From Hypomesus transpacificus (taxonomy: Eukaryota; Chordata; Actinopteri; Osmeriformes; Osmeridae): a DNA stretch of 64,000 nucleotides. A program made the translations under genes and the position numbers. This document shows, one piece after another, positions 4,525 through 63,844 of the stretch (positions within the stretch are counted from its first letter, which is position 1; each line of letters begins with the position of its first letter). The DNA lies in contig NC_061068.1 of assembly GCF_021917145.1 (NCBI RefSeq), positions 8,745,724-8,809,723 of the forward strand, in the 5' to 3' direction. The notes under the pieces were generated by a model. It did not search any database, was not told the origin of the DNA, and was given only the letters and a program-made list of their open reading frames with translations.

Positions 4525-4605
4525 GGCAGTGTGTATCGAGGGTTTCAATCCCACATTCCCCTCTATGTCTTTAGATAAAAAGCAATTGCTAAATGTATTG
4601 AGACT
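4525..4605 (+). mobile_element. Degenerate SINE-like remnant
   Basis: A tRNA B-box-like segment (GGTTTCAATCCC near 4540-4552) is followed about 30 bp later by GATAAAAAGCAATTGCTAAATG. That resembles the tail CTCTGGATAAGAGCGTCTGCTAAATG found throughout teleost genomes, seen almost intact at 63,526-63,570. Order and spacing suit an old tRNA-derived SINE, but the copy is badly eroded, so the family is not assigned. Confidence 0.4.
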
Positions 4606-6834
4606 AAAACACACAAACACACATCCACAAACACAGACTCTTGGGAAATGCAGTAATCCTATACTAATGAGTTACTAATGAGTGAGCCTCCTCATTAGGT
4701 ATGCCTTTCCTTCTCTACATGGTGTAGGTTGTGTCTCAGAGCACCGGGGCATGCAAGGAGAGTTCCCCGGCTCCAGGAGACAGAGCGGCACTCAGGGGTG
4801 GAATCAGGGACACCAGCAAACATGGGCCGTCAGAGAAAAGAGGACAGATCACATCCCGACTTCAACAAACTATGCATCAGTGCCAGTGGAAGATTTGTAA
4901 ATGAAAGGGACTTCAGTCTGGATTTTTGAAACCTGATACAAAGTAAACTTTTTGTACTTATTTTCTGTGTTAAACCAGAGTTGTCTAAAATGTAGTAGAT
5001 TGAATGTACTGCATACAAATGGAACATTAACAAGCTAATTAGCAACAGTAGATTATTAAAACCCTGTTTTAAGTCAATGTTTTCTTGTGGCAAATTTAGA
5101 TAATTGAGATAATATTAGCTAATAGCAATAAAGCTATTCTCAGCTGTTCTCATTTGTCAGCTGATCTGCTAAGACAGAACAAAGTGGTTTGATTATACTT
5201 GCCTCACAATTATTTTTCTTTTTTTTGCTTTCTGCAGATGAATGTAGATTTGTAGATTTTTTTAATATAAAACGATTATCTCACTATTTACAATTCCTCA
5301 GAGTTTGTCTTCATGTGATTTTGTTGTGGTTAAGATGTTACTTCTTGTAACGTTAGTACAACTTGGTGAAAGGTGGTTTCATTCCAAAACACTAGTACCA
5401 TGACATCAGTCTTCTACAGTTTTATATATGAACCATTTATTGTACACTGTCTGTGAGAGGAGGTAAAAAAGACAGAGGGAGAACGCAATAGAGAAAGACA
5501 GAGAGAGAAGCAGGGATATTCTACAATCATGTTGTGGTATTACTGTGTCTCCAGGGTGGAAGGGGATTTGTGCCTGGATTTCCAACATTGTTTCTGCTGT
5601 TAGAGAAGCATTCAAGTTGGATGTGTGCGCATAACATACTCTGACAGACGTCCAAAATGTGATGTGTCAGCACAGAGAAACACACAGCACAAGCACTGAC
5701 TGCTCAGCATTTCCTTAGGTTTTTATGTACATTTTAAGACATTTGTGGAGGATCTTCTTTACATTTTTACTTTGTTTATGACATAAAATGTTCAGTATGA
5801 CACTGAAAAACTTAAATTAAAAACGTTTTGAACTGAGCCCTTAAAAGATAATTAAGTAGATCATAACATTTTTCCCATAGTTAAATTGCAAATGATCCTT
5901 TTAACTACAGCAATTGGAACTGAGTTTGACCCAACAAATCAAACCAAACCGGCATTCACTGTTGCTTTTGGCCAAAGTGTTGGTGGTTGGAAGTGTTAGT
6001 TTGTGTTTGTGCCTGTGTGGATGTGTGTGTTAAGTAAGTATCACATTTGAGTTTCTCTTCGAGTCAGAGGGTTGAGTGAGGGGCGCCTGACTTCCCAGAG
6101 AGCCTACATTTTCTCCATATATTACATTTTCTTTTTTCGTCTAACTTTCCTTTCAAAGGTTATCTTCATTTCCATATACTTGTAATATTTGTAATTGCCC
6201 CCTAGCTAAACTAAAGCAAGAAGTGAAATTAATTTTGAGGAACAATTTTCTTTAGAAGCCACTTTGACATCCAACCAAAAGGGTTTTTAAAGATGAATTT
6301 TATAACAAAATTTAAGAGGACAAAACTGCTTTTTATTAATTTTGTATCATACAGTTTTTGTCATGCACAATTATTTTTAAATGGTACATGAAATAACTGA
6401 AAACATTCTTTTTTCATGGCAAGTATGAAATGTTTCACTGATGTAAGCTGTTAAAGGAATCCATTATCACTAATGGAAGCGTCTAAATGAATCCATTATA
6501 CATTTTATATATTGTAATTGAAAATGTGTAATTTACATTACTGCCACATGACAAGTCACATATCATAAAAAGGTAATTCAACTGAGCTGCTAAATAAGCA
6601 TAACTGTTTTTTTTTTTTTTTTATGATTTAAGGATTCCATCTTGAATGTAGATCAGAGCCCATTACAAACTTAAGTGACTACATTACTGTAATCTCTACG
6701 TTGAGCAGATGTTCATGTGTGCTTACAAATAACACACTTGTGTCTATGTCACGACATTAATATTTGACTCTGCGTGTGTCTGTGCTTGCTTATGTGTGTA
6801 ACCTCGCGTGTGAAGGAGCCTAGCCATCGTACTT

Positions 6835-6961
6835 GTTAGTATGTGTGTGTCAGACCACCATCCTGCTTGTGAGCATGTGTGTATCAGACCACCATCCTGC
6901 TTGTGAACAAGTGTGTGTCAGATCACCATCCTGCTTGTGAGCATGTGTGTATCAGACCATC
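6835..6961. repeat. 34-bp minisatellite, about 3.7 copies
   Basis: The core CAGACCACCATCCTGCTTG recurs at 6851, 6885, 6919 and 6953, an exact 34-bp period, joined by a TGTGAGCATGTGTGTAT-type linker. The third copy has a C-to-T change (CAGATCACC) and a changed linker. It lies in a GT-rich context and probably grew out of a GT microsatellite. Confidence 0.9.
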
Positions 6962-8313
6962 CGTTACAGGAGGGGGACCGCGGGTTGCGAGTTCAGCAGT
7001 AATGGCGATGTTTCAGACTAGATCATACACAGCAACATGAACTGTAGGAGCATGACATCTTATAATTTAACTTCTGAAAAGAGGCAATGAGAGAGGCAAC
7101 ACACACACTAAAGAATTCAATCGAAATGGCAAGTGGAATTAAGTGCGACATTTTGCCCCTCCCCTCCTGTCAGTACCTTTAGGGAGCCAGTACCTCCGGT
7201 CTCCCCCCCCCCCACAGCCCCTCCTGTCTCCCCCTCGTTGAGGTCTCTCTCTCTGGTGTTCAACTGATGCTGCCAGTGGGGCCAGAACTCTGGCAGCCGC
7301 ACCAACGATGACTCCACTATGAGTCTCAAGAGACAGGACCCACGACAAGGACTTGGACCCTGTCACTCACACTCACTCACACACACACCCTCACACAGCT
7401 CTCTAGAGGACAACAGGGCACAATGAGGATGAGTGACATTAGTTTACCATATGACAACAAGGCTGTTCTGTCACAGGGATGGCAGGATGGAGGACAAGAG
7501 AATGAGACGGAGAGACGTAAACAGAACCTTGTGTTTCTGAAGTGACCTCACTATGTTCAGGTTACACGATGATTCTGGTGTAATGCTTTTTTGAGTTTCC
7601 TCACACAAACGCATACACTTCTCAATGAGACAAGGGGCTGAAAGCGATTACCAACCAACTTGGATTGTTATTGGAGGATTGAGTGTGGTGTCTGTGTGGT
7701 GGTGTTCGGTCAGGCAGTAACCTCAGATCCTGTGCTGTCCTTGTTTGACTCGAGCTCTCCCAGGACACACCATTCAGCCTCTCTCCAAGCATTCAATGCC
7801 TAATTTTTAATGGTTATGGTGATCATTATTGTCAATTCATTGTTATAACCCGTGTGGTGAAGACTGGTGGGAGCTTTAAACTGTGGTAGAGGACAGATGC
7901 TCTGTCACACACGCAAACACGCGCACACACGCACACACACAGACAAACACACAGACAGACTGGCATGTATGCATGTACACACACACAAATGAAAGCACAC
8001 ACTCAGACACACACAAAAAATCTGAAAAAATTGTGACAGCATATGCAAGCAAACATAATCAACCAGTGTGGACATGAAACGCAGACTGAGATAACAGCTT
8101 TTTGTATCGGGGAGCAACTTTCAGTAGGCTTGTATCAAAATTAGTCTTTACATATGTTAATTCCTGCTGATGGCAAAATACACAAATAATTCATGCCTCT
8201 TTCATGCAAAGGAATTGTTATTCATTCACTCCGTTTTTTGACTGACAAACACACACACAAACTTATACACACACACTCAAACACACACAAACATGCACAC
8301 AATGTTACCTTAC

Positions 8314-29100: not shown

Positions 29101-32100
29101 AGCGACAGATGGAGCGATAACTCCTTTTCTCTGATCTACGTTCACACAGTCAAACAAACAAGCAGCCGTCCCCATTGGAGGTCCTCTTGAGAGGGACCCA
29201 ACCAGAAATGTGTATCTCGACTCACACACCTGGCTCACACCTGCTGTGTGAGTCTCTAACCAGGTGTGTACGTGTTCAGAGGAGTGTGTTTTGTTGTGAG
29301 GACACAGCATACATTGTAGCCAACTAAAGGTATTTGATTGGATTGTGCATTTTTCTTCACATTTGTTTTTAAATAAACTCCAACGTTGAAAGCTGTTCAG
29401 TCTCTGTCTGGCCTTCAACATGTGACACACAAGCATGATCCCTCTCTGTCTCTTTTACTCCCCCTGCTGTGGAGCCAGACAAGGTGGCAGATGAACACTG
29501 GCTAATACAGCGAGATTGGATGGTGTGTGTGTGTGTGTGTTTGTTCAATTAAACAAATGAGAAATACCTGGGTTTACAAGCAGGATTTTTTTTCACACCT
29601 CGTTGTGTGACTTTGGAAGGTGATGTTTGAAGTAAGGGTCAAGATGTGGTGTGACTGGTTGTTCTTACAGATAATAGTTTTCTATGAAAGGGAATGTAAA
29701 CCATTGTTCTCAAACGACTTTTTGTATTGTAATTGATTAATTAATTTCCAATCACATTTCAATACTATTTTTGCTCAAATTTAACCCACAGAGTCGAATA
29801 ATTGCAATTCCATTATATTTGGTTATCCACTGTCCAATTTACGTCAGTTTACCCCTCTTTCCTTTAGATCAAGGGGCATAGTTGTGGTTGTTTGGACAAT
29901 CTATTAACACCTACGATAACACCAACTGTAAACACACACATTCAGCAGCATATATTGAAACATTTAAACATACTGTATTTACACATTTAAACATTTGAGC
30001 ACTCCAAGTGTGTGGTTATTGGATAATGTCGTGATTGAGTCATGCAAATGAGCAAACTCCCACAATGAATGAACACGTTGTAAAAAAAGCAGTGCTCTCA
30101 TTGTTTCTCAATGTCCCACAGTTGAACTCCTGATACGGAAACTCACACTGTGCTGAGGGGAATCTGATCAAATACACTCTAACTCCCTACTGTTTCACTC
30201 CGTCTTTCTTCACACAAACATAAATGTACTCTCTCCCTCACACACACACGCCATATGGGCCGGTGGTTGAATATTAATAGTAGACTTATTTACAATTCAA
30301 GCCGAAAGACTTTCAGTATCTCAACTCAGACAGCGGATGGGGATTTCAGAAAACACTGCTCTTCTAGACCTTGTCGTTTCATTCAAATTGATGACATCGT
30401 GTAAAGGACACTTGCATCTGTGACAATAGTTCCACTTGAATGAATAATATAAACATAACTTAATGTTCCATTTTGTTGACAAATTTACAGTTATGAAGAG
30501 TGCATGCCCTGATGACTTCCACTGAGAGTTCTGTCTGTCTCATCTGCAATGGATATCAGGCACGCATTCCTACATCAGTCACAGCCACACAATCAGACAG
30601 GCTGTGCTCCTGCTGTGTGAGAGGACTACCTAAGCTATGGGCTCTGCATAGAGACCTGTCATTACCATTAGCAGGACTATGTAAACGTGCTCTACGCAAA
30701 GATCACTGCTGGGGCTCGTCTGGCACGTTGTAAAGAAGCCAAAAAATAAGTAGCTAAGCCAAAAACCCACAAAACAAGTGATTTGTTTAAGGTTTTAATC
30801 AGCCAATGAGCAAAATCAGCCAACAGCAGATTGATTTGGATTATCAGCATAGATAGATCTGTCAGCTATCAAAGCAGTTGCTTATTGAGCAGAAATATAA
30901 ACCTATGGAGCTCTCCAAAAACAGCTTATTTACTAATGGATTGTCACGTTAGTCCTCAAGTAAATTAAATAACTATTGATCAGGCAGAATGATGTGGTCA
31001 TCAAATGAAGCTATTTGAGAGTGTGTGTGTGTGTGTGTGTGTGTGTCTGTGTCTGTGTCTGTGTGTGTGTGTGTTTTTGTGTGTGGACTTGATAGGAGAC
31101 CACCTGGGAGGAGCAGCTGCTGTGGACTAGGTCATGTACAGAAGGAGCAAGTGCAGATTGATCAGGCATTTCATCACTTCCTGTTTTCAGACCCTTGATT
31201 CCTATACTTTGTTTACATGTCATGAGAGTGTGCGTTAAGCGCGTGTGTGTGTTTGTCTATGTACTGTTTGCGTGCTGCAGTGTTGTAACTTGCATGAGAT
31301 GTCAGCTGACGCTTCAACTGACCCATCTTTGGAAAAAATACAGATTTTAAAACTACTGGGTGACAGAAAGGAGGTCCCAACAAACTGCACTACAGCCATT
31401 ATATCTCCTTGGAATACAGTATCGTTTGTACATTATGGTTGGAATATTTCCAACCATAAGTCTTGCCTAGTCTTGTACTGCCCTCTTGTGTTTTTATAGT
31501 GATGCTTCATGGATATGGGGAACACTTCGGGAAAGGACCCTTCTTTCCCCATCTCACTGTGTCTGTTTCTGTATAGATGGTAAGTATTCTTTTTTTATTG
31601 ATTCTTGTCCTAATACATATGCCATCTAATGAATGGCATATGTAAATACTGTGGTATCATACTAATACCACTAGCTTGTGCAGTTAACTAGGATAACAAG
31701 TATGGTCAATATATCAACACAACAGTAAACAACAAAAAACAGGGATGCTCAGTATTCCATCTTCACATTATGTTGTATGGTGTGAAAATAACAATAAAAA
31801 AGTAAAAAGTGTGGAGCAGGCTTTTCTGATGCACATTTGAACCTATACGTGAGTTGAGACATGTTCAGGGGGTAGGGTGGTTAGTGGAGTTTTGGGGGAA
31901 GTTTGGTTACTCCGACTTTTTTCTGTTGGAATTCACAATAATGGGCCGTGTGATAAGTGTGGTCCTTTGGAAACTGTAAACTCAAGAGCATGTGTTGTGT
32001 AAGGCATGCAAGACCAAGTAGAGGGCCATACTCAGGGCTAGGATTAGTGGGTGTGGTCCTGAGTGGTCCACTAAAACAGGGGGTTATGGTAGGGAGATTT

Positions 32101-33200
32101 TCAGGCCTATTTTAAAATGGATTTAGGATATTGGGATGAGGGTCAGGGACAGGGTAGAGTAAGGAGTTTATAGTGCAGGCGTCCTGCCAGGAGTCAGGCC
32201 TTGTACTCCCGAACAGTAGATGGTGGACATGCACCTCTTTGTGTTGGTTGCCATACGCCGTTAAATCGGAAAAAAGAAGAAGATCTATTTTTTGTTTACA
32301 AAATAACCAATCACATGCAGTGGCGTATGACGTTTCCTACGGATTCCAACCGTAGGCCATTTCGGTTTGGTTCAGGGGAGGAGTGTAACGGTATAGCTAC
32401 CATAGTCTCCGGTATCGGTTTTACGGATTTACTGTAGCTATAGCCACAAACATTACGGTAAATTAAGAGCGAATTCTTGACTCAAATATAATTCTGCTAA
32501 TCCCATTTTGTCAACATTTGTTTGAACTGTTTTGTCTAAAAGAATCAAGTTCATCACAATAGTCAAAGTAGCCTAGTTAAAGCTAGCTAGCTCGTTTTTC
32601 TATGACTACTTGCTGGTTGAGCGAACTGGATCACAGCCATTTCAGAAAAGATCTGAGCTATATACCACATATAGCTACAGACTCTATTCTTTGGCATGCT
32701 ATTTTGTTATTCTGATGATGGATTAGGCCGGGATCGCAGTAATATAATATCTAACTAGCTAGCGATCTATTAGGTGCTTGCTAAATTAATAAAGTTGCTA
32801 AATGTAGGTCGTCTACTCACCCCAAGTCATTCGGGCCTTTCACCTGCCATTTTAATTGAATAACGCTACAATATTGATCATCTGCACCGATATTAACTGG
32901 GCCCAGATTGGGGTACACATACCTTCTGAAATGTGTCTGTGATTCTGCAGAACCAGGTCAAATAAGTGAAGCATTACAGCAATGCAGTTCCATGTGCTGT
33001 GCATTTCCACACATGATACACCTGTGAGTTCGAGCAGTAATCTGTACTGGCCCATTGTTGCCTAAATCAGCGAGTGAGGTGTCACATTTCTGCTTACTTG
33101 TTGTACACATCTAACTTTTAAAATGTGTGTTAATGTGTAAAATATCTCTGGATCAAAGCTGTATTTCTGTATAAAATGTAGATGTATGTTACCCACTATA
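18061..33200. other. 15-kb intergenic stretch, no gene found
   Basis: I find no frame with coding character, no RNA gene and no paired splice sites. The left half has many CA/GT arrays (for example 20,008-20,095, 20,870-20,891, 20,932-20,968, 24,048-24,105, 26,107-26,150 and 31,018-31,075) and CT-rich tracts (23,430-23,500 and 24,350-24,540). Bases 26,900-30,480 are AT-rich and largely repeat-free, with several TAATT-type homeodomain cores; this is where I would look first for distal enhancers of srsf3 or cdkn1a. That last point is inference only. Confidence 0.5.
32197..32285 (+). mobile_element. Fragment of a dispersed teleost repeat
   Basis: The order AGTAGATGGTGGACATGCACCTC, GTTGGTTGCCATACGCCGTTAAA, then AAAAAAGAAGAAGA resembles a dispersed sequence I know from fish genomes. 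Its hallmarks are a GTAGGTGGCGGTAATGCACC segment, GTTGCCAACCGCC and an AAGAAGAAG tail. The family name is not assigned from memory. Confidence 0.35.
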
Positions 33201-33330
33201 TCAATTGTTATATTGTGTAATGTGTGAAAATGTGGCCTACCTGAACATTTAAATGGACAACTCTTCTTTCAGTTTTTCTGTCGCATTTACGGAGTGTCAG
33301 TTTTTGTTTTGAAACTTGAGGCCTGTTGAA

Positions 33331-36300
33331 ATGGCAGGTAATTTCTCAATTTTCATACTTGCATGTCAGTACATTGTGTGCCTCAACGTTTTTAGCATAT
33401 TAACACACTAAAATAAGTTATACAATGACTCTCCCTATTGTTTGAAGTAACACCATCTATGTAGGTCTAACTGATTAGTCCTATTTAAAAAACATAATTA
33501 TTAGCATTGTTTGCATGTTGCTGTTAGTTGCATAGTTAGGGAAGATCTTTAGAGTATACATGACTTGCATATTTCTTAACCATGTTCACTTGTTAAACTA
33601 AGAAGGCAGCCTCAATCAACTGTCATCCTCAAAGCCAACTATACATTTTAGTGCATTTTGTATAACTTTTCAGATCCAGCCATGCACAGAGACTGTCCTC
33701 TTGACTGCAAGGTCTATGTGGGGAACCTGGGCAACAATGGCAACAAGACGGAGCTGGAGAGGGCGTTTGGCTACTACGGCCCCCTCCGCAGTGTCTGGGT
33801 GGCAAGAAACCCCCCAGGCTTTGCTTTTGTTGAATTTGAAGATCCCAGAGATGCTACCGATGCAGTGCGGGAGCTTGATGGAAGGTATTTATTTACCAGA
33901 ACAGATCATTAAGCTGTAAATCGCTAAATAAATAGGCATCAAGTCTCAAACGAGCCTATTGTGTTTCGATGGGCCTGTATTTTTTTAGTAGGCTGATAAA
34001 TCTGTTTCACTGAGTTTTTGGTTTGCTTTGGGAAATCCAATGTTTTGGTTCTTCTGCACAGGACATTGTGCGGTTGTCGTGTACGAGTTGAGCTATCCAA
34101 TGGAGAGAAACGCACCCGCAATCGTGGTCCTCCCCCCTCGTGGAGCAGACGCCCTCGAGACGACAACAGGCGTCGTAGTCCCCCGCCCAGACGCAGGTAA
34201 CCCCCTCCCCACACAGACCTGTAGGTTACCCACTCATCTTTTTACTCCATTTTCTAGTTTATAACTCTTATTTAAATTGTTGTTTCCCTTTGATGAACTG
34301 CATATCCTGTTTCGTTACCACATTTTATTAGTAGTCTAGCTGAGACTGAATGGCAACCCTTGGTTCCATGGTAATCTACGGTCAAGACTTTGTGACACTA
34401 ATGGCATGCAGTTGTCATTTTCATTACCATTTATAATCATTGGGGCTACTATAAGTTCCAGTGAACTGTATGTCCATGGGGGTGGTTGAAAAAACGTGCG
34501 TTTTGTATGCCAGATTAAGTGCACTTGATGCTACATGTTTCTCCAAATTTAGCTTACACGCCTTTCATTGTTCCTGCAGCGCCAAATGCATTTTGGAAGT
34601 GTAAAAATGCCATGTGTTCTTCTTAGATCATCTGATGCTTTAGCAGGTGTAAATATCACAACTAGCTCTTTTGAAGTAGGTTGCTTGTATGTCAAAGCTG
34701 TACCATTTAAGTACAAGAAGTGTTTTGGGGGGAGGGTATTTGATGATACTAGAAGGGTTGTGATGCCAGTTTTTTGTTTAAATTTGAGGTTGACTTTTTA
34801 TTTACCATCTATATTAATAAAAATGAACCCCCGTTGCAGAGTCACCACCATGCCTCTTCTCACCACCCTCTGAGTCAGTCAACTAGTCTTCTTTCAGCAT
34901 CATGTGACCGCTGACCAGCGTGCCCCAATCAGCTTGGCTGGTGTCGTGTCACATGACCCAGGCATGGCCAGTCGTCAGGTTGCACCAGCCCATTGGTTCC
35001 TGAGCATGCCGTTCTCAGCCTTCTCCTCCAACCTTAATCCAATCGGCAGTGACCCATCTCACATTTCCGGCCAATCAGCGTTTTACGCTCCCAAATGTCT
35101 ACACTACAACCTACCAGCAGCAGCCCTCGGCTAACCAATAAAAGCAGCAAAAAAGCCACAGCCAGCCCCCATCCGCCTGCCAACTAATCACCTTGCAGCA
35201 TCTGGCCAGTCCTATTCAGCCAATTCTGCCTACCTGGCCGACAGTCTGCTTCCCCTTCGTCATATCTAGCTTGTTGAAAACCAAAAAACTAGTAAGTTGT
35301 TCCTGCTTCATACAGTACACTGCTGATTACAGTTTAGAAAGTGAAGAGACAGCTGGTTTAAACAAAGGTTCTCCTTTTTTATCTGAATCGTAAGAGTTGC
35401 TTTTTTTCTCACTAATGTGCTGTTATTTATTGTTTCAAAGGGGAAAGGCTCAACATCCAGTGTCTAAGGCCATCACATTGACAGAATTGTGGATGATAGA
35501 TAACCAACGTGGTTTGTCTTGGGGTCTGATAAAAACTCTTAAGGAACTATTCCAATCAGTGCTTTCCCTTGGAAAGGTTAAGTCCCATCTTGGTCCCATC
35601 CTTTATGTGCTTTGCGGATGTTCTCCATTGGTACCTTTTGATATGTCTACATAAAAATCCCTTAGATTTGACCACAATTAATAATGCTGTTACAACCTTC
35701 CATTCCCTCAGCATCTCTCCCTGTTTGTGTAATTGCACTTCTCTCTCTCAAACCAGATTGTGCCACTTGCACAGGTGGCAGTATTAACCATGTCATCTTA
35801 AGGAATCAAGTCAACTAAATTGCCGATTTCAAATGCCCTCTTACAGTCTCCCATCCTGTCGAGATTAGTTCAGTTGCCCACTAAGAGGCTGTGTTAAGGG
35901 GGTGGGTGTTCACTTCAGGGGAGCACAGGAGATAGGACTGTGGTATCAATGGGCCACCAGGACCCCCTGCTCTCTGTGTGAAGCCCTCTGCTGTTCTTTC
36001 CTTCCTCAGATCCCCACGTAGGAGGAGCTTCAGTCGCAGTCGTAGCAGGTTAGTGGACTGCAACGTCCTTTAAAGTTTCCAAATTTGATCAATTGATATG
36101 TTGATAAAGGGCTTCATGGCCTAACACCATTTCCCTGTCTCTACAGGTCTCTTTCCAGAGACAGGAGGAGGGAGAGATCCTTGTCCCGAGACAGGAACCA
36201 CAAACCATCCAGGTCCTTCTCTAGATCCAGGAGGTAAAACATGCAGCCAATGGAAATTACCGACTAATCACTCAATGTTTCTAATTTTCACCATCCAAAG

Positions 36301-36430
36301 TATTGGCTGTATTTTGGCTGACTTTAAGTAAATTGTTCTCAATGATGAGTACTTGTTCGTAAAAATTCTAATGTCATGTCGGTGACTGTCTCTTTTTTAC
36401 AGCCGCTCCAGGTCTAATGAGAGAAAGTAA
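33331..36430 (+). CDS. srsf3: Serine/arginine-rich splicing factor 3 (SRp20)
   Basis: SRSF3 is a nuclear RNA-binding SR protein that acts in splice-site choice and mRNA export. Coding exons are 33331-33337, 33674-33884, 34062-34196, 36010-36048, 36147-36233 and 36403-36430, all with GT-AG borders. They join to 168 codons plus TAA. One RRM has RNP2 (VYVGNL, residues 16-21) and RNP1 (GFAFVEFE, 51-58), followed by an Arg/Ser-rich C-terminus ending in SRSRSNERK. The sequence is nearly identical to mammalian SRSF3 (164 residues). I start at the exon-1 ATG because ATGGCAG|ATCCAGCC joins in frame to give [14 protein letters not shown]. The second ATG, at 33682, would reproduce the shorter mammalian start. 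The neighbour is cdkn1a, as in human 6p21.2. Intron 3 holds a poison exon. Confidence 0.96.
34840..35291 (+). other. srsf3: srsf3 poison cassette exon (premature stop, NMD switch)
   Basis: Within the long intron 3, an acceptor (CCCCCGTTGCAG|AGTCACC) and a donor (AACTA|GTAAGT) bound a 452-nt exon. Spliced after exon 3, the frame continues for 11 codons ([11 protein letters not shown]) and then meets TGA at 34871-34873. This leaves an RRM-only protein and a transcript open to nonsense-mediated decay. In mammals SRSF3 limits its own level by including a cassette exon of very similar size (about 456 nt) at the same place. The exon carries at least five CCAAT/CCAATC motifs and an AATAAA near 35,139. 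The boundaries are seen here; the function is inferred from the family. Confidence 0.85.
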
Positions 36431-37272
36431 GAGGATGCATGGAGGTCATGTTTAAAGTCGCAGATGAATGAACGCTCATACTTATTGATTCATTTCATTT
36501 GATGGAGAGAAAAAATCAGTGAGTTTTTTTGTTTGTTTTAATCCATCAATAATTTTTTGGCGCTTTTGTTTTTAGCTTCTCTGTGACGTGCAAATTTCCT
36601 CTTTCTATATTTTGTAATTAAGTGTGAGTATATGTGTTGATGCTTGACCTCTGCCCTGTAGTCTTCTTGGTGCTGAAATACTGTTTTCCACGATTACTTT
36701 CTGCCTTCAATGTTGCCTGTTATCTGCTATTGTTTTTCCAAAGTTATTTTCTCGATTTGTCAATGAACCATTACAGGTGAGTCTAGCTCTGATAAAAAAT
36801 GGCACTGTGATGAAGGAATACATTAGACACACAGACATGCAGTAGTTCTAATCTTAACTATCTGAGTTTGTCTAAGATTTCACTTTCTTTCATTGATATT
36901 TGTACTGTTTGTAATGTTCTCTGAATTAAAAGAAAATTCAGAAAAGTTGTCTGTGAAGTCATCAAATCTGATAGAAAGAAATCTAGGTACCAAAAGGGGG
37001 TGCAATGGCTATACATTCATTTTTTCTAGACCTGTGCATGAGTGGTCTGGTCTCAACATTAACTCTCTCTCACATTAACTGATAAACTGATTACTAGGTA
37101 ATAGGACGTAATATATATATATATATATATATATATATTGATATGGCTACGACTAACAAAATACGAATTCTATGACTTCATTTCTGGCAAGGTGATTTAT
37201 TTGTATTTATTTTGAGGTGGGGAGGGTGCCAGGGTCACCCCAACATAACATTTTAAAACATTCTTCAATAAA
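36431..37272 (+). other. srsf3: srsf3 3' UTR with alternative poly(A) signals and an (AT)n repeat
   Basis: Non-coding sequence follows the TAA at 36428-36430. A weaker ATTAAA lies at 36925-36930 and an AATAAA at 37267-37272. Between them is an (AT)n microsatellite at about 37,111-37,138. Either signal could end the mRNA. Confidence 0.6.
37267..37272 (+). terminator. srsf3: Candidate srsf3 poly(A) signal AATAAA
   Basis: A canonical hexamer about 840 nt after the srsf3 stop codon, followed by T-rich sequence. Confidence 0.5.
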
Positions 37273-37949
37273 GTATTTTTTTATGAATGGAAAACAATTT
37301 ATCCAGTCTTTAAATTCACTTTTTTTGCGTATTTATCCCCATCCCACTCATTTAGAAGGTTGTAGGCCTAAATGAAGGCCAGGCTGTATTTGAACCCCAC
37401 CTTCCCGTGTCACCCACTCCACTGCATTCTCCAATTGCCTGAATTTAAATCCATCCATTACAGACAGACTCGCATCTTTTCACGCATACTATCCAGGTGA
37501 ACCGTTGCACGTGCAGTTTGTCTATTCAAGTGATCGCGCACTTTCACTCCAAGGAGGACTAGACCGCCTCTGACATCAGCACAGTCCTTGTGCCTTCCAC
37601 CGGTAATGCTAAATACAAGTGTATGGGGGTGACTGGGACAGTCGTTCAAAAAAGAGAACAATCCCCGAGACAGTTGGGAACACTCATCGCCAGATTCTCA
37701 TGGTCATCTTCTGTGCTGCTGGAGAGTGGATGGTCATGACGCCATCACCTGTGGATTCAGTTGGAGAAACCGCTCCCCTGCCAGATGGACCCAAGTGGAG
37801 ATACACAAACTCAAGCTCAAACTTCAAGATAACATGAACTAGGCGGGTAAATCTCAAATTTGGGCGGCCTGCTGACATGCTTGCACGTTGTTTATTTATA
37901 CCATGACCTCATACCATGACACTAGGTGTGTTCGACAGCCGGCTGCCTT

Positions 37950-38279
37950 GAAGCAGCCAATGGCATTCACTGCTTCAGTCAGCAGGCTGCAGAAATTCAC
38001 GTAGCTAGACCCCGCCTTGAACGGGAAACTATCGAACGTCATAAGTCCTCTCATTCATTCTTGAGAGAACACTTGGAGAATCTTTTCGTCAAGTAGGGTT
38101 ATAAGGGGATTCGTTTTTCTTTCTGCTTTATTTAACTTGACAGCATTTGAAAGCCAAGTAAAAGATAGTGCTTCAACAAAGGGATATTGGAAGATAAAGA
38201 AAGCAACGTTTTCGTTCTTGTGGGCGCCTACCAGTATTGGCTACTTTGATAGAAGTGCGTATTACTGGATTCCAATAAC
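37950..38279 (+). promoter_or_regulatory. cdkn1a: Possible distal promoter and alternative untranslated first exon of cdkn1a
   Basis: A CCAAT box (CAGCCAATGG near 37,955) is followed by roughly 300 bp of unique sequence ending in a strong donor, AATAAC|GTAAGTG, at 38,279/38,280. Nothing upstream of the donor codes for protein. The nearest plus-strand acceptor that suits it is the one before the cdkn1a ATG (39,737-39,738). Mammalian CDKN1A also uses alternative untranslated first exons. This is inference; it could equally be an unrelated non-coding transcript. Confidence 0.3.
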
Positions 38280-39228
38280 GTAAGTGAATTGACAAAGATT
38301 ATATTCTAAAACCATATAGTAGGCCTACCTTTTCTATGACCATTGTAGCCTACTACTTTTGCCTACAGTTCACAAATAATTATTGTCTTTCCTGGAGTTC
38401 AGCTATTTAATTTGTCTGAGAATATTATTTATGAATGCTGTATTAAAAAAAACGAAAACAATAGCTTACGTTTCAGACCAATTCTGTTTGACGCTCTAGT
38501 CATGGAAAGTATTTTGACATTGACATTTTGACAGCCCCCAGTTTGAACGGGCTCACATGAGTTTCAGATTCACGTGAAACGTAGTAAAGTGGGCTCGGTC
38601 TGAGCTGTACATGCTTTTCCACTCCTCAAGTCATCGGTTCGTCATCCCGCCACTTTATTGAATTTACCCTCCGGGCCCGCCTCCAACTGCCTTTGGCCTT
38701 GTGTCTGGTTGTCAAGCCCTTTTTCAGTGACAAATTTGTCACGCACTTTGACAATTAGGATACTTCTTCTTTCGTCCTACCTATTCTTTTTATCTTGTTT
38801 GTTCATGTTTTCTTAATCTAAGCATCAGCATGTTGAGTGAATGTGCCTCCAATAGTTTTTTTGTTCAGGTTGACAATGAGCATTTATTGAAAACCATTTT
38901 CAAAACGCCATCTTTCTGTAATAGGCCTACACATATTAGCCTAAATATCAGGAAATATTGGCGATTTCATAGCGTATGCCTACACTTTTAATACTGTTTG
39001 GGAAATGTGGAGTGAGTCAAGTCTTCAAATGGCAATTTTCTTGTTGTTGTGAAAAAAAAGACTTGTTACATGATGGTACATTTATTTTTCAATTCTTATT
39101 CTCATACAATGTTAACTTTCTCTCCAATTTACGTGACACAAAGATGCACTGTCATTCACACAATCCTAAAAATGGCCCCACACTGCCATCCGGTGGTTTC
39201 GACCAAAAGGCCTCCTTTACTTCAGACA

Positions 39229-39423: not shown

Positions 39424-39747
39424 GTGAGTTTTGTAGCCTGGTAGGCTAGTGGTGTCATCAGTATTTTGTAATTTTGATAGATGTTCTTAAGAGATTGTAG
39501 AATTATTCATAATAACGTTGAGCTTGAGTTTGGGATACAATGGCATAATTTGATTTTGTGTGCTTCTATTTTATGATTGAGATGTAATCTGATGAATAGA
39601 CAAAGTGACGATAACTAATGGCTATTGTCATTATTTTTTTAAATTGCCATACAGCATTACTTGTCTACAGACAGTAATTTTTTTCTTTTTACTTGCTCAC
39701 CTAACCAGTGTTTCCCTCTGTTATTCTATTCTCCACAGTGTAAGACC

Positions 39748-40874
39748 ATGGCCTCTCGCAAGAGCATTCTAAGCTCCTTGGGTTGCGGTACTGCCCAGCG
39801 CAGCCTGTTTGGTCCAGTGGACCATGATCAGCTGCAGCAGGAGTACCAGCAAGCCCTTCGTAAAGACCTGGAGGATACCTCGCGACGCTGGGGCTTTGAC
39901 TTCCTGCTGGAGAAGCCCTTAAAGGGAGGCGACTTCCAGTGGGAGGGCGTTCCTTCCACTACGGTGCCGCTCGTCTACCGCCCAAATATGGTGGGCATGA
40001 ACCAGGTGGAGGGACAGAGGGGGGTGGGCTCTTACATAGAGGCCAGGGCAGGGCTCTCGCTCAGTGGGAAAGAGAATGTCCTGTACACCCCTGAGAGGGA
40101 TGGAGCTACCATCGTCCAAAACCTGGAGAAAACGCCAGGGAGGGCAGAGAGAGAAAGGCTGAAGAGAAAACAGACCAACATAACAGGTATGATGGGGGCA
40201 GCACTAGTGTGACCTGTACTTTCCCTGAATCCAGCCAGTTGCATAAACTTAGTGTAAGACTAGTCTTAGCCTTAGACTGTCTTAAATTGTCAGGTAAGAC
40301 TAGTCTAATTAAGCCTGTCTGTTGCATAAATAGTAAGACTGACTTAATTTGAGGTAGAAAAGTTAGCCACCTCTCCCCCTGGCTAAACCTTGCCGTAAGG
40401 GCTGAGTTGCTATGCCAACGATCTGTTTTAGTAGGCTACGTCATTATCTTAGCATAATGTATTACGAAAGGAATTAAGTGTTATTTGTAACTGCAGAAAA
40501 TGTTTACGGGGTTCTGCTTTTCCGCAGAATAAAATGTTTTATTAAACGAGTGAGTAGATGACAACATAACTCGCTTTATTGACGCTAGCACCAGCCATCT
40601 GCGTTGTTGTTGATAAATGGAAGTAGCGTTGGGGTTAAATTAAGAAACTTAAAAACGCATACACTATTTGTTAATAAGACAACTTTTTCAATACTGTATT
40701 CCTCCAACAGATATAGGTTTTCATAAGGTTTAAATGTATCAATCTTTCGCCGTTAAGTGTCGCTGTTTTGTCCGCCATCTTTTCTTTTTTCGCGAAGTGT
40801 CTTATTTTACCCATAACGCAGCGCGCAACAGGCTATCTAAGTCAGTCTTACGTTAGTCACTGATCTCCCCCCTG

Positions 40875-43532: not shown

Positions 43533-46500
43533 GTAACGTTCCCAAATTAATCTATCACCGCACTGGTATGTGTCTCATCCTCCTCATCCTCGTTCATCCA
43601 TGCTCGCTGCTGGCACTCATCATCCATTTCACCCATGTCGCAGTGCATGTCTGTCTCCACGTGTGAAGTCATGACAAGAGACATTTTCTCTTTCTTTTTC
43701 ATCCTAGCCATCTGCCATCCCCACCACCACCATCATCATCTTTAGGAGACTGGTTTACCCTGGAGCTTATCCTGAGTTTTCCCCTACTACCATTGGATTT
43801 CAGCATTGGCCATTGCTGTTTGTCTGTGTTGTTTGTGTTGTGCTTCTTCTAGAGATACATAAAAATTGTATATCCTCTTCGTTCTGTGTCTTACTATTCA
43901 AACATGCTATCAAAATGAAATAAATCTGAACGCAGGCTCTGTGGTGGTTCTGACTGCAGTCATTTGTTCAATCCAAAGCCCTGCATTAGCAGCTAACGTG
44001 ATTGTAACCTACTTTCTGAAAATGCCCTCTTTTCTGTTCGTCTAAAATAGAGGAGGTCATGCCTCTTTGGTTCATTTGATACTATTTTTCCAATGCAAGT
44101 CGAATGATGTTAGTATGTGGGTGACCAGCTGTAGTGAATTATAACTGGGATGAGAGATGTTAGATGAGAGGTGTCACATGCCTTAGAAGGCTACTATTGC
44201 TGCACTGGCACTGGTGACAATGTTGTGATGTCTGCCCCGGTAACCAGAGGGGGATGATTATACACAACACATCCACTTCTGCCCCAGCAACCTACAGCAT
44301 CTAAAGAAGGTTTCATGTGTCATGAGGAGTGGGCCCCATAATGATGGACCCACAGACAAGATGTTTGTTTGTCGGAGTCTATCATTAAAGGATTCAATCC
44401 CTGCTCTATTGTTTGTAAAGCTGTCACATTGTGACACAATGCAGAGGTGCTGACTTTGGTTTTTGGGCGTGTGTATGTGAAGAGATGTAGGGCAGGGAGG
44501 GGGGGGGGGGCACAGAGGGGGCCACACAGGGAGCTTATATTCATGGCCACACAGGGAGCCTCAATGGGTTAGAATTTAAGTAGCAATTGTACTGTTGTTA
44601 TTGTGCATGAGGCACAACTGGAATCACTTTCAAAGGACTTGTAATCGATGATGAAAGTCATACAAAAATGATTTTGTATGTTGAATTCAATAATGCTTTT
44701 TTATTTTCTATGGTGGTACAGAGTGCCAGGACAAGATTTTTATACTTAAGTGGGGCAATGTAAAAAAAAATACACAAATAATACACAATTATTTTTCCAC
44801 CATCAGTTCAACCACTTCTCTCTCTCTTTTTTCTCTCTCTCTCTGTCTCTCTCTGTCTGTCTCTCTCTCTCTGTCTCTCTCTCTCTCTGTCTCTCTCTCT
44901 CTCTGTCTCTCTGTCTCTCTCTCTCTGTCCCCCTTAGCTGGATAAAAGTGAGGTGACAACCCTCGGCCTGCCCCCTTCTACCAGCCATGGAGGCTCTGAC
45001 GGTAACATCAGTGTTGACGGAGCTGGGGCTGGGGCCGTGGCTGGGGCCGGGGCTGTGGCCGGGGGGGCTGATGGATCAGGGGTTGCCGAGCCCCAAAGAA
45101 TGCGAGCAGCTCTGGAGCACCTGCAGCAAAAGATCCTGAAGATCACCGAGCAGATCCGCGTGGAACAGGAGGCACGCGATGACAACGTAGCAGAGTACCT
45201 AAAGCTCGCCCACAACGCCGACAAGCAGCAGGCCTCACGCATCAAACAGGTGTTTGAGAAGAAGAACCAGAAGTCTGCACAGACCATTGCCCACTTACAC
45301 AAGAAGCTTGAGCACTACCACAAGAAGTTGAAGGAAATAGAACAGGTGATTGTCTTTGATTGTGTGTGTGAGAGAGAGTGTTTGTGGGTTTGCGGATGAG
45401 GTTCTACTCATTGGTTTATCCCTCATATAGACCCGATTAAGATTTCAGTTCAGAAAAAGGTCGCTAGGTTTGTCAAAGCTAAATACGTTCGTTTTCGGCA
45501 AATAAGCTTTCTCTGTTAAGAAAAATGTTCAACTTCTGACAAAGAGCATGTTCATCATCTGTATTTGCTCCCTTTTTAATTTCATGTCATCCTTTCTGTG
45601 TCTTCTAGAATGGTCCAGCCCGACAGCCAAAGGATGTCCTCCGGGACATGCAGCAGGGCCTGAAGGACGTGGGAGCCAACGTCCGAGCAGGCATCAGTGG
45701 GTTTGGCGGGGGAGTAGTGGAAGGGGTCAAAGGAGGGGTATCTGCCCTTACCCACACTGCCGTAGTCTCCAAGCCCCGGGAGTTCGCCAGCCTGATACGC
45801 AATAGGTTTGGCAGTGCAGACAACATCGCCCACCTTAAAGACACACTGGAAGACGGGGTGGGAGGACACTCGGAGGACACCCTCACCCCACGCGCCCTGA
45901 GCGGCAGTGCCACCCTGGTATCCAGCCCCAAGTACGGCAGTGACGACGAGTGCTCTAGCGCCACCTCGGGGTCAGCGGCCGGCAGTAACTCGGGTGGGGC
46001 CGGGGGAGGAGGGGGGATGTCCGGGCTGGGCCCAGGTTTGGGGAGCCCCAGGCTGGATGGCCACCATCACCACCACCATCACATCCACAGCTCCTGGGAC
46101 GCGTTGCTGGAGGGCCTGCAGGAGATCAAGGCCAGCCAGGCTCACATGGAGGACACCATCGAGGACATGAAGGGCCAGCTGCAGAGTGATTACTCCTACA
46201 TGACTCAGTGTCTGCAGGAGGAGAGATATAGGTACAGTAACCAACCCAGGCCAGGCCGACACTGAAACTGTGAACTTATGTTATTTTCCAACAATCCTCT
46301 TTGCCTTTATATATTTGTCTGGGGAAAAAAAACGGTATAAATACTTGCATTTCATCCAGTGGCATTCACATATTTGAAAAGCCACTATACTCAAAGGATA
46401 ATGAGATCAGAACTGGTATGAGATAGTCATCATATTCCTGGTCTTGAAACTATTGTAAATGTACACCCAGATTTTCCTCCCATGAAGCGTTGGATCATAC

Positions 46501-50391: not shown

Positions 50392-53300
50392 CTAGGCAGA
50401 CCTCTGGGTGTAGAAGAGAATGTAGGCCTGAGTGTTGCACACCTCCTCCACGTTGCACACGTTCATCTCAGAGTCATTACAGTGAACCCAGAAACCTGGG
50501 AGGGGAGCAGAAGACATGGGAGTTAAGAATCTGGAAAGACATGTGAGAGTTCACAAGTTCTCCAGGCGTCGTATAATCGCAGGTCAAAAACCCCATCGAT
50601 GGCACGTGGCAAGTTCAAAAGGCCATGCCCACGAGCAGGAAGAAAAACAGTGGTCAGACAAGCATCTGATGAACTGACAGATTGGCAGTCAATGGAGAAA
50701 CCCAAATGTTTCCCCCTTAACTCAGGAGCATAATCTCTCAAGATACCATCGCCTTGGGTATCGATACATCACAATCGACAGCACATGACAGCAATAAGAA
50801 GGTAGTAGCCATGTGTCAGAGCACACCTGGTAGCTCACCTCCTTCTGTATTGTAGCAGTATGCGGTGTAGTGCCCTGAGCCGAAGCCTTTCCCATGGTGC
50901 ATGACCACAGCAGACAGGTCGTAGGTGTAGCCCTCTCTATGGACGGTATGACCCGAGTCACTGCAGCAGTAGGGTTCTATATTCAGAACCTGGTCGAAGG
51001 CCACGTGGACGCCAATCTTTTCCCTGTGGTTCCGACCTGACCATCTGTTATACACACGGAGGATTGTAGTTAGCATGAAAGTGGATCCTCTGCACACGAG
51101 TTAGGCATCAAAGGCAATTTGTGCTGATCTGTCTGGCCGAGATATACACTTGAACTACCATGAGTCATTTTAAAAGCATGGGACAGTTCTGAACATTAGC
51201 CAATATATCAATATATTTACATACATTACCATTGGTTAATGTGTTAAAATAAACTTAAACATATCAGCTTGGATTGACAGGCATGATCTGGATTAATCAG
51301 TGATAGCAGGCTCCTCGACATGACTTCACTGACCTGAAGCGCTTGAGGTGCAGCCGTAGAACCTGAGGTAAGCGGTAGATCAGAAGCTGCTTACACGCTT
51401 CTGACAATACCAGGGGCTTGTGGGACGTCTTCCGTCTCCTCCCTGGCAGAGGAGGAAAACATTAGCTCCACGACTGACGTTTGCCTCTCAATGAATGGGA
51501 TGTTCTATTGACTTGTGTGGTCGATTTTAATCTAGGACCACTCTGCCACTCCAAAGAGGCCTTTGTAAATCTCCGTCTAAATACTCACTGTTGCAGTTGT
51601 TGCAGGCATAAATGCTTCCTTCTAGGGCCTCGGTCTCAGTAAACTTGGCCAGCATCTCTGTGAGGGAGCAGCTGCGCTGGAAGGCCATGGAGCTGGAGCC
51701 CTTCTGCATGCTGTGGTAGCGCTCAGGGAACTCCAGGGAGAGGTCCCAGAAGGGCTCCACTGTGTTGGACTTGTGCTTACACGACAGACACGTCACCTAA
51801 AACAAACAGCATGGGGACACCAGAGTAAGTAAAAGGCCAGAGCCGGAAACTCAAATGCATTTGTCATGCTCGGGGTGCGAGTTAGGGGAATAAATGAAAG
51901 AGGGGAGAAGTTAGGAAGGGGGAAAAGAGGGAAGGGGGAAAAGAGACGGACGTGAAAAATGGGAAGAAAGAAAAAAAGAGGCTCACCTGACTGAGTAGCT
52001 GCCCATGGAAGATGGTGTTGAGGACCTTGAGCACCTGCTTGGAGAGCTTCCTCTGGGTGATGGGGATGACGATCCTGCGCTTGGTGCCCTCCGACTCCAG
52101 CTCCTGCTGCACCTTGTCCAGCAGCTCGCACAGGAACTCCTGGGCGTCCTGCTGATCGTAGCCCCGGAACGCCGGGATCAGGTTCCACACAGAGTGCAGC
52201 ATGGCGAACGGCGACACCAGCGACCAGCGGCCCGACCACATGACCCTGAAGAGCGTGTGAAGCTCGTGACAGAGGGACATCTGCTGGCGGGTGGACGAGC
52301 GGGGCTCCTTGGGCTGGACCAGCTCTGCTGCGTTCAGGCAGGGAGGGGTGATCTTCTTGCTGCTCTCTGGTGAGCCACTGCTGCCCGTCTTGGCCAGAGG
52401 GCAGCCTAAACCCTGCGCCAGCGTGCCAGCGCTACCGCCTCCAACTACGGCACTTGCTACCTCCTTGATCCCCTGGGAGCTGTTGGTCTTAGCCAGCAGC
52501 TCCTCGGTCTCACACACGTCCAGTGTGAGAAAACACTCCCTGAATTTCTGCAGGTGGCTCAACACCTGTAAGATAGAGTTCATGTAGCACGTGTTGCCCA
52601 GGTTACGCAGACCAGTGACACCTGGGGCCAGTCTGCGACGTGTGGCAGTGTGGGAGTAGAACCTCCGCACTTTTGGAGTCCTACCATTACGAGAGGGCTT
52701 GCGAGAGAGCGCGATGGCGGGGGGCTTCCTGGGCTGAGGAGGTAGGCGCTCTGGAGGGTCCCGGAACTTGAGGGGAATGAGTGTGATGGTGGAGCGGGGC
52801 GTCCGGGTGAGGAGCCGCGCGCTCTTCCTGGGCGGCACGTTGGCCAGCTCACCCAGGAGCCTCCTCTTCACCTCCTTCCTCTGGCGTCTCAGCTCCTCCT
52901 TTTCCTCCTCCAGCTTCTGCTCCCGCTGGCGCTGCAGCTCCTGCTGCCTCCCCCTCCACCTCCGCATCACGCTCCCCAGGAGCATCTTCCTGCGGTGCCA
53001 CAGGGCCATCTGCATGGCAGGCTGCAGCTGCGGCCCCCCCTCCCCCACCCAGGGGGTACAGTCCCCGCTTGCCGAGGAGCGCAGGGAGCGTCGGCCGGGG
53101 CTGCGCACGGTGGACAGCGCCCCCCGGAGGAGTTTAAGGTCTCCTTCCGCATTGTCGTTGAGCACGTAGTCCCCGCAGGCGAAGCAGAAGACGTCCAGCT
53201 CACGCACCTCCATGGCCAGCGGGTGGCCCGACTCCTGAAAGTGTTTGAGCGAGTGCTCTTCGATGAAGCGGCCACAGGCCACATGGGAGCACTTGAGGCA

Positions 53301-53411
53301 TGCCCAGACTGACTCGGTGGTGCTGCAGTCCACACAGCTCCATTTCTGCGGGTTCAGGACTGAATGGTCATGGCCCAGGCGGAGGCGGCCCACGTGCTTA
53401 CAGCGATCCAT
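50392..53411 (-). CDS. usp49: Ubiquitin carboxyl-terminal hydrolase 49
   Basis: USP49 is a nuclear cysteine deubiquitinase; in mammals it removes ubiquitin from histone H2B and affects co-transcriptional splicing. Minus-strand exons 53411-51987, 51796-51589, 51442-51334, 51044-50839 and 50495-50392 join to 683 codons plus TAG (human: 688). An N-terminal zinc-finger UBP domain (about residues 4-80: C4, H6, C26, C29, C38, C41, C76, C79) precedes an Arg/Glu-rich coiled stretch (150-185) and the USP catalytic core. The Cys box is [13 protein letters not shown] with Cys275, and the His box is GSGHYTAY. The last exon ([20 protein letters not shown]) ends ILFYTQRSA, as in USP49 and unlike its paralogue USP44. 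med20 upstream on the same strand and bysl/ccnd3 beyond match the human 6p21.1 order. Confidence 0.95.
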
Positions 53412-53478
53412 CTCTCAAGATGCACATGTGCCTGTGGCGTCAGGACACACCCCCCTGAGCCAAGCAGCAGCTCATTCT
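53412..53478 (-). other. usp49: usp49 5' UTR part of the first coding exon
   Basis: A minus-strand acceptor, CCCTTTGTCAG|AATGAGC, sits at about 53,478, so some 67 nt of leader precede the ATG at 53,411. AATGAGCTGC contains a short upstream ATG in another frame. Confidence 0.55.
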
Positions 53479-62518: not shown

Positions 62519-63525
62519 TGTACACAACTTCACTTTAACTAGTCTCAGGAGCGATTGGTAGTTTATTTATGTAATAATTCAAGTGAGACCAGAGCAATAG
62601 CTAATGGCAGTGTGCAACACTGTAGAGTGGTACAAGCACATTATCTCTGTACTAAGATTGTCCGTGATATCTTGAAGTTCCTCGCACACTTGGTGTTTCA
62701 CACATAATTAATTAAAGGGATGTCCTTTTGGGACATTATGTAATGGTTCCCTGCTATTAGACAGTCTATTTAAGAGTTCAGTGTTGTTGTTTGGCGGTTG
62801 CTTCTAACATTTAAAAAAATGCTTTGTTTCTTTATCTTGCTTTAGTATACAGTTGCAATAGTATTCCTATTTGGTTGGTGACGTTTGTTTTCACTTCAGA
62901 CATGCTATTTGTCACACTTGCCTGACATTTTTCACTTGATGTTAATGTTAGCTTGGTGAGTCATGCTTTCAATGCATACAATATGAATTATCATAAAACA
63001 TTTCTTATCCTATCTATTAAGTGTATTCAGTCCTTATTGATTCTGAAGTGACATTTCTCGATTCCTAACAATGTGCTGAGATAGACCTCTAGTAAGGTTG
63101 CGTGATAAGTGCTGATAAACAGTCTTCTGTATCACACTACAGTAATAGGTTAACCACAACTACCATAAACATTTATTACTAGGTCACACAGAACAAAAGA
63201 TATTCATTTATTTTTTATTTTTTATAATTCACTATGCCAGATCAGTGAAAGCACAAAGTCACACAGATAAGGCTGGCATTGTGGCCAATATAAATGTGGT
63301 CCAAAAAAAAAAAAGCTTCTGAAGAATCCAGTGTTTCCATTTTCATGACACATTTGACATAATTATGTGCAAGTGGATGACTAGACAAAATCCACACTTT
63401 CCTGTTTAACACAAACAAAATCCCAACAAGAAATGTATACAATTACATTTGAAAAGCAATATCCTCAGTATTTGTTGTTAGTGATATTGCTGCTTTAGTC
63501 TAATGTCTTTACTACCACTGAATAT

Positions 63526-63570
63526 GCGACTGTAAGTCGCTCTGGATAAGAGCGTCTGCTAAAAGACTAT
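63526..63570 (+). mobile_element. Teleost SINE tail motif
   Basis: GCGACTGTAAGTCGCTCTGG continuing into ATAAGAGCGTCTGCTAAA is an almost intact copy of a tail segment found very widely in fish SINE-type repeats. The upstream head is not recognisable, so it is a fragment or a very old copy. Confidence 0.6.
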
Positions 63571-63844
63571 TAAAAATATGTTTATGGATTGCTGCTGCTG
63601 ACATTCAGAGCTCCAAATACAAATTTGATACAAATTTCCCTCTAAATCCAATTTGTCTTAAGCATATTCCAGTCATTGGCAAGCAACTTGATGCTGAATA
63701 GGCCACCATCTCTTGTGCAATTAGAAATGGTGTATTTATTCAACATTCATGTGAGTGGCCATATTAAACAGCCAAATAGTTTGATGAATTGCATAAATCC
63801 TAATCATATACAAGACATACTGTACATTGACTTAACAGCACAGC

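Follow-up and report, generated by a model that had tools for sequence, protein, structure and literature searches.

The cassette at 34840–35291 on the forward strand of the window (the whole 64,000-nt stretch of Hypomesus transpacificus DNA analyzed here) is very probably, with a rough probability of 0.93, orthologous to SRSF3 exon 4, a poison exon with an autoregulatory role whose inclusion is promoted by Srsf3 and leads to nonsense-mediated decay (NMD). For human and mouse, passages in three reports (PMC4586487, PMC10321290, PMC10957711) state that SRSF3 promotes exon 4 inclusion and that transcripts containing the exon are targeted by NMD. By analogy with that system, plentiful Srsf3 in this fish would promote the inclusion of its own exon; the included message would stop at the TGA at 34871–34873, 418 nt before a splice junction, and would be degraded by NMD, lowering Srsf3; and skipping of the exon would allow full-length Srsf3 to be made. 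The exon is a known, deeply conserved element and is not called new here, because a passage of PMC10321290 already reports the conservation of exon 4 as far as a fish. Among the literature matches listed, none described a teleost SRSF3 poison exon in its title or in the start of its abstract.

The forward strand of the 64-kb window carries one srsf3 gene, with a product of 168 aa from the joined coding exons. The coding part of exon 1 (ATGGCAG, 33331–33337) is putative, its assignment resting on its being in frame with exon 2. It is followed by exon 2 (33674–33884), which encodes the RRM and lies in a joined translation that matches human SRSF3, and then, as placed by the joined gene model, by exon 3 (34062–34196, ending in phase 2), exon 5 (36010–36048), exon 6 (36147–36233) and the coding end of exon 7 with its TAA stop (36403–36430). 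Residues 6–168 of the product correspond to residues 1–164 of human SRSF3 (PDB 9asq chain H, E 1.1e-98), and an RRM_1 domain is recognized by Pfam (E 6e-19). The ATG of exon 1, in the stretch 33331–33690, would put MADPA ahead of the MHRD start of the human protein.

The cassette lies between the end of exon 3 (34196) and the start of exon 5 (36010), with AG before it and GTAAGT after it; the coordinates within intron 3, the length of 452 nt and the flanking bases were all borne out as originally predicted. It is entered in phase 2, and the TGA comes after a split codon (AG/A) plus 10 codons, so that the predicted count of 11 extra codons is right. If the cassette is skipped the product has 168 aa, and if it is included the product has 128 aa, an RRM-plus-stub form that is 40 aa shorter. 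The position of the stop, 418 nt ahead of the next splice junction, is by the known rule a strong NMD setting.

As had been claimed, the place and the frame effect of the mammalian exon are kept: like SRSF3 (SRp20) exon 4 of human and mouse, the cassette belongs to the same gene and the same intron, lies between coding exons 3 and 5, has the same phase and an early TGA, and gives a tail of the same shape. The accompanying claim that size is preserved is close rather than exact, since the fish exon has 452 nt and exon 4 has 456 nt in both human and mouse (a passage of PMC10321290, which also gives the human products as 164 and 124 aa). The truncated forms, 128 of 168 aa in the fish and 124 of 164 aa in human, are both 40 aa shorter than the full-length proteins. 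Further differences from the mammalian gene are the N-terminal MADPA extension, the product length of 168 as against 164 aa, and the absence of TTTCT from the exon examined here. Poison exons of SRSF5, SRSF6 and other SR genes are likewise cassettes with an early stop and a link to NMD, and those of different SR genes occupy non-homologous positions, according to passages of Lareau and Brenner (PMC4379411).

Nine human SRSF3 oligos were compared with the window (oGJH65, oGJH66, oGJH211, oGJH761 and oGJH765 were left out), and two of them find clear counterparts in the cassette. The human SRSF3-PTC reverse primer (listed in a passage of PMC11193772) matches at 24 of 25 bases at 34849–34873 and ends on the same TGA, the next best match in the 64 kb being 17/25. 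Similarly, oGJH759 (from a passage of PMC4586487) matches at 23 of 24 bases at 34932–34955, with a next best of 16/24. The best matches found anywhere for six other exonic oligos are 17/23, 15/21, 19/26, 18/25, 16/24 and 19/29, and that of oGJH46, which was kept apart from the exonic set, is 17/26. The human-fish comparison of exon 4 therefore covers two published oligos, 49 nt in all, over which the sequence is near-identical; no further exon-4 oligo appears in the portions of PMC10957711, PMC6163301, PMC6885243 and PMC5862586 that were covered. Judged by these base matches, at the two oligo places the noncoding exon resembles its human counterpart more closely than do the coding exons. Among vertebrates more widely, the identity of exon 4 is given in a passage of PMC10321290 as 100% between human and mouse, >97% with birds and 91.92% with coelacanth.

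A DNA search of the genome (437 Mb, 376 contigs) with the exon gave matches at two srsf3 loci only, and among the matches listed in a protein search (the best candidates) identity above 90% was likewise found at two srsf3 loci only. Weaker protein matches elsewhere in the genome have 74–75% identity, and these loci are probably srsf7, although this is a guess. The second srsf3 gene is on the same contig, 2.6 Mb off and inverted (G000:C9:6139000–6148999, locus L003), and comprises exons 2 to 7 plus a candidate exon 1. Where the gene in the window has PAMHRDC, the second gene has PALNRDC, and the human-type ATG is missing, from which we infer that the second gene starts upstream of that position. 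Its poison exon, of 461 nt (L003:4513–4973 on G000:C9, minus strand), has the same place, phase and tail length, the same architecture, and a near-identical 3' splice-site region. It differs from the exon in the window in that four of the six CCAAT/ATTGG words and the AATAAA are changed, and in holding one TTTCT.

The two poison exons are identical at 362 of 450 aligned bases (80%), with 13 gap columns. When the window from 32000 to 38500 was compared with the second gene by blastn (E 1e-3), only exons and short flanks aligned; the match of the poison exon extends 43 nt upstream and 10 nt downstream, and no other intron sequence aligns between the two genes at this threshold. Together with the human oligos and the shape of the product, the second gene gives good support to the mammalian SRSF3 poison-exon architecture named in the original prediction. 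In the prokaryote and virus collections, a pattern made from the conserved core had, as would be expected of such collections, 0 matches (genome_contigs and viral_contigs, respectively).

The remainder of the window contains several other features. A CDKN1A-like reading frame (39643–40209; Pfam CDI, E 1.8e-18) begins about 3 kb past srsf3; CDKN1A is the neighbour of SRSF3 in human as well. Beyond it are a frame of the Tmemb_cc2 (transmembrane and coiled-coil) family at 45609–46262 (E 5.3e-44), and, on the minus strand at 51885–53414, a 510-aa open frame for a ubiquitin hydrolase (domains zf-UBP and UCH). A tblastn search of 40 kb around the second srsf3 gene gave no match to the cdkn1a-, tmcc2- or USP-like frames of the window, while the first 60 lines of a tblastx comparison all pair 1533–8309 of the window with one short stretch of locus L006 and look like simple repeats. 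An Rfam scan at gathering scores gave no match at 34840–35291, and its only match in the window is a UnaL2 LINE 3' element at 63519–63572 (RF00436, 62.6 bits).

Rather than being spread over the whole exon, the identity between the two srsf3 genes is concentrated in a core at 34817–35014, where 189 of 198 bases are the same (95%). The 5' part of the exon within this core (34840–35014) is near-invariant, with 167 of 175 bases identical; by segment, the counts are 32/34 for 34840–34873 and 135/141 for 34874–35014, but only 195/277 for 35015–35291, the 3' 60% of the exon. Coding exons 2 and 3 together are 79% identical, with changes by codon position of 11/4/57, and coding exons 5–7 are 83% identical (4/1/22), so that a stretch of some 200 nt surrounding the 3' splice site of the cassette is held more tightly than the coding exons of the same gene. 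Changes over 34841–35082 are spread evenly over the three phases (5/9/8). This lack of codon-phase bias indicates selection on nucleic acid and not on protein, and the constraint on the first half of the exon acts on RNA or DNA and is centred on the acceptor side.

The earlier description of the cassette's splice sites as good holds for one of the two only. The 5' site (CTA/GTAAGT) is indeed ordinary, with a score of 79 as compared to 75 to 91 for the other sites of the gene (Shapiro-Senapathy scale, approximate base frequencies), and the region that contains it (GTAAGTTGTT, 35292–35301) is identical at 10 of 10 bases in the second gene. The 3' site, however, is poor in pyrimidines, with 8 of 17 (3 of them T) at −20 to −4, where the gene's five remaining acceptors have 12–15 of 17. 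In the two srsf3 genes the cassette acceptors have 8 and 7 of 17, and the other ten acceptors of both have 10–16. The end of the intron ahead of the cassette (34817–34839, ending in ..AATGAACCCCCGTTGCAG), though it lacks a pyrimidine tract, is conserved, being identical at 22 of 23 bases. Since the tract is missing from both fish copies, we infer an acceptor that is weak by design and would depend on activators bound to the exon.

A possible RNA hairpin at 34900–34956, with a 9-bp outer stem (TCATGTGAC/GTCACATGA), has the lowest z (−3.36) of 395 60-nt windows spanning the gene, and a 57-mer of equal stability was seen in 3 of 150 exon shuffles. On a 70-nt frame the z of this region is −2.19; among 500 shuffles of the exon, 24 contain a perfect 9-bp inverted repeat. 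Taken as a whole, the 273-nt core is no more stable than its shuffles (z −0.72, 43/200 as stable). The second gene gives z −1.41 at the same place on one frame and −2.19 (7th of 232 windows) on another, and its most stable 57-mer (9/150 shuffles) is a different stretch. Three substitutions fall on the pairs of the hairpin, the first changing G-C to G-U, which is kept, the second C-G to C-A, which is broken, and the third being a human change at 34948, whose partner in the 5' arm lies outside the human sequence compared; no compensatory change in the stem was seen in the second srsf3 gene. The hairpin is a possible lead only. A fuller reading, regarded as unlikely, takes the core at 34817–35014 as a composite switch, made of the tract-less acceptor and the hairpin shortly after the start of the exon. 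Inclusion would then need Srsf3 bound on or close to the hairpin, what remains of the exon would serve teleosts only as exchangeable spacer, and repressor sites would be split between the copies (TTTCT in one).

The exon had also been described as rich in CCAAT words, six in number, that might form a clustered platform for SRSF3. Six is correct only if both orientations are counted: on the RNA strand there are five CCAAT (34925, 35039, 35071, 35135 and 35220), and the ATTGG at 34992 is a different word. The raw count exceeds expectation (5 vs 1.06, reached by 5 of 2000 dinucleotide shuffles), and no other part of the window, at equal length, is as dense in CCAAT/ATTGG, with 6 in the exon as compared to 5 at the next two places. 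The word was picked after the sequence had been looked at, however, and with word choice taken into account the excess loses its significance: in 2050 of 4000 shuffles one 5-mer or another is equally or more extreme on a Poisson measure, a correction that may be somewhat too harsh in that CCAAT has a Poisson value (0.0047) less extreme than the shuffle result of 5/2000. CCAAT is fourth among the 5-mers of the exon; the most over-represented is TGACC, with 4 vs 0.23 expected before any multiple-word correction. The exon of the second gene shows no excess of CCAAT (2 vs 1.52 expected), and only two of the six words are kept there, in the form of CCAATCAGC at 34925 and 35071.

Motif counting covered 15 patterns in 4 stretches, and no SRSF3 motif was found to be strongly enriched in the exon, including WCWWC, CNNC and CTCKTCY, which we take to be motifs of this protein. 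CATC (4 vs 4.53 expected), TCATC (0 vs 1.17) and WCWWC (6 vs 5.57) show no enrichment, and the figures are not strong for CNNC (63 vs 57, 240/2000 shuffles; in the second gene 69 vs 59, 42/2000), CTCKTCY (1 vs 0.26, 484/2000) or CTTC (5 vs 3.35, 485/2000). As none of the words known for SRSF3 shows clear enrichment, no motif pinpoints where Srsf3 would act in the exon. The word in the solved SRSF3 complex is CAUC, and CUCUUC is also given (a passage of PMC10321290). The idea of a CCAAT cluster as an SRSF3 platform is accordingly not upheld, given that the second gene has changes in four of the six words, the excess is lost after the correction for word choice, the word is CCAAT and not CAUC, and CATC is at the level of chance; the single conserved CCAAT words at 34925 and 35071 could still be bound. 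In mammals, PTBP1/2 oppose the inclusion of exon 4 through a UUUCU exonic silencer (passages of PMC10321290 and PMC4586487). This is a regulatory site mapped in mammals and not a defining feature of exon 4; TTTCT occurs 0 times in the exon of the window and once in that of the second gene, near its 3' end.

Of the other explanations, the one closest to the poison exon, and compatible with it, is that the exon chiefly yields a stable truncated Srsf3 (RRM plus stub) that has its own function, NMD being secondary. Such a protein is made in human DUX4-expressing cells, where NMD is impaired, and its tail peptide is PRRRVTIMSLLTTL (a passage of PMC10592454); the 10-aa tail is nearly alike in human and both fish genes. 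The conservation of the core, however, runs about 140 nt beyond the stop (135/141) with no codon-phase signal and so is not explained by the tail, and the stop is 418 nt before a junction, which together make this reading quite improbable. A use of the segment as an alternative last exon would draw on the AATAAA at 35137–35142, which is present as predicted and has ATTAAA as its counterpart in the second gene. One or more such hexamers (AATAAA or ATTAAA) nevertheless turn up in 202 of 2000 exon shuffles, the 5' splice-site region is kept at 10 of 10 bases, and the 40 nt downstream contain 4 T and 5 G and thus lack a U/GU-rich element, which makes the hexamer poor as a poly(A) site. The proposed poly(A)-based off switch is not supported, and a last exon is very unlikely.

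The conservation could alternatively reflect an element at the DNA level, with CCAAT boxes serving as NF-Y sites in an intragenic enhancer or promoter. NF-Y binds CCAAT, six CCAAT/ATTGG words within 300 bp form the densest group for that length in the window, and CCAATCAGC is kept at both of its positions; but four of the six boxes differ in the second gene, the excess is gone after allowing for word choice (2050/4000 shuffles), and it is at the acceptor and the 5' splice site that the conservation is focused, with the reading phase and the TGA kept, so this reading too is very unlikely. Pairs of AG and GT that enclose an early stop are common, and a chance pseudo-exon might be suspected; the close agreement with two human oligos, and the conservation of the exon in the second srsf3 gene, leave this with a practically negligible probability. 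The orthologue of SRSF3 exon 4, acting as a poison exon, is the preferred reading, although the looser identity of its 3' part, the missing TTTCT and the want of clearly enriched SRSF3 words count against it.

Some reports on other teleosts touch on the same gene, without the exon or the kind of event being named in the passages concerned. Zebrafish smg9 mutants show raised srsf3a RNA (PMC11133409), as do mutants of one or both of the EJC genes rbm8a and magoh, in a study that classes srsf3a as a 3'UTR-intron gene (PMC7310861). Altered splicing is reported for srsf3a in at least two of three teleosts exposed to a change of salinity (PMC8869236), and for srsf3 in tilapia under cold (PMC7093569).

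Overall, this fish genome has kept a self-limiting exon in both of the srsf3 genes found. As the exon is 100% identical between human and mouse (a passage of PMC10321290), a comparison of these mammals cannot dissect it. The two fish copies divide it into a core and a periphery, a split that suggests where in the exon the sequence essential for its regulation may be found and provides a narrowed target for testing.
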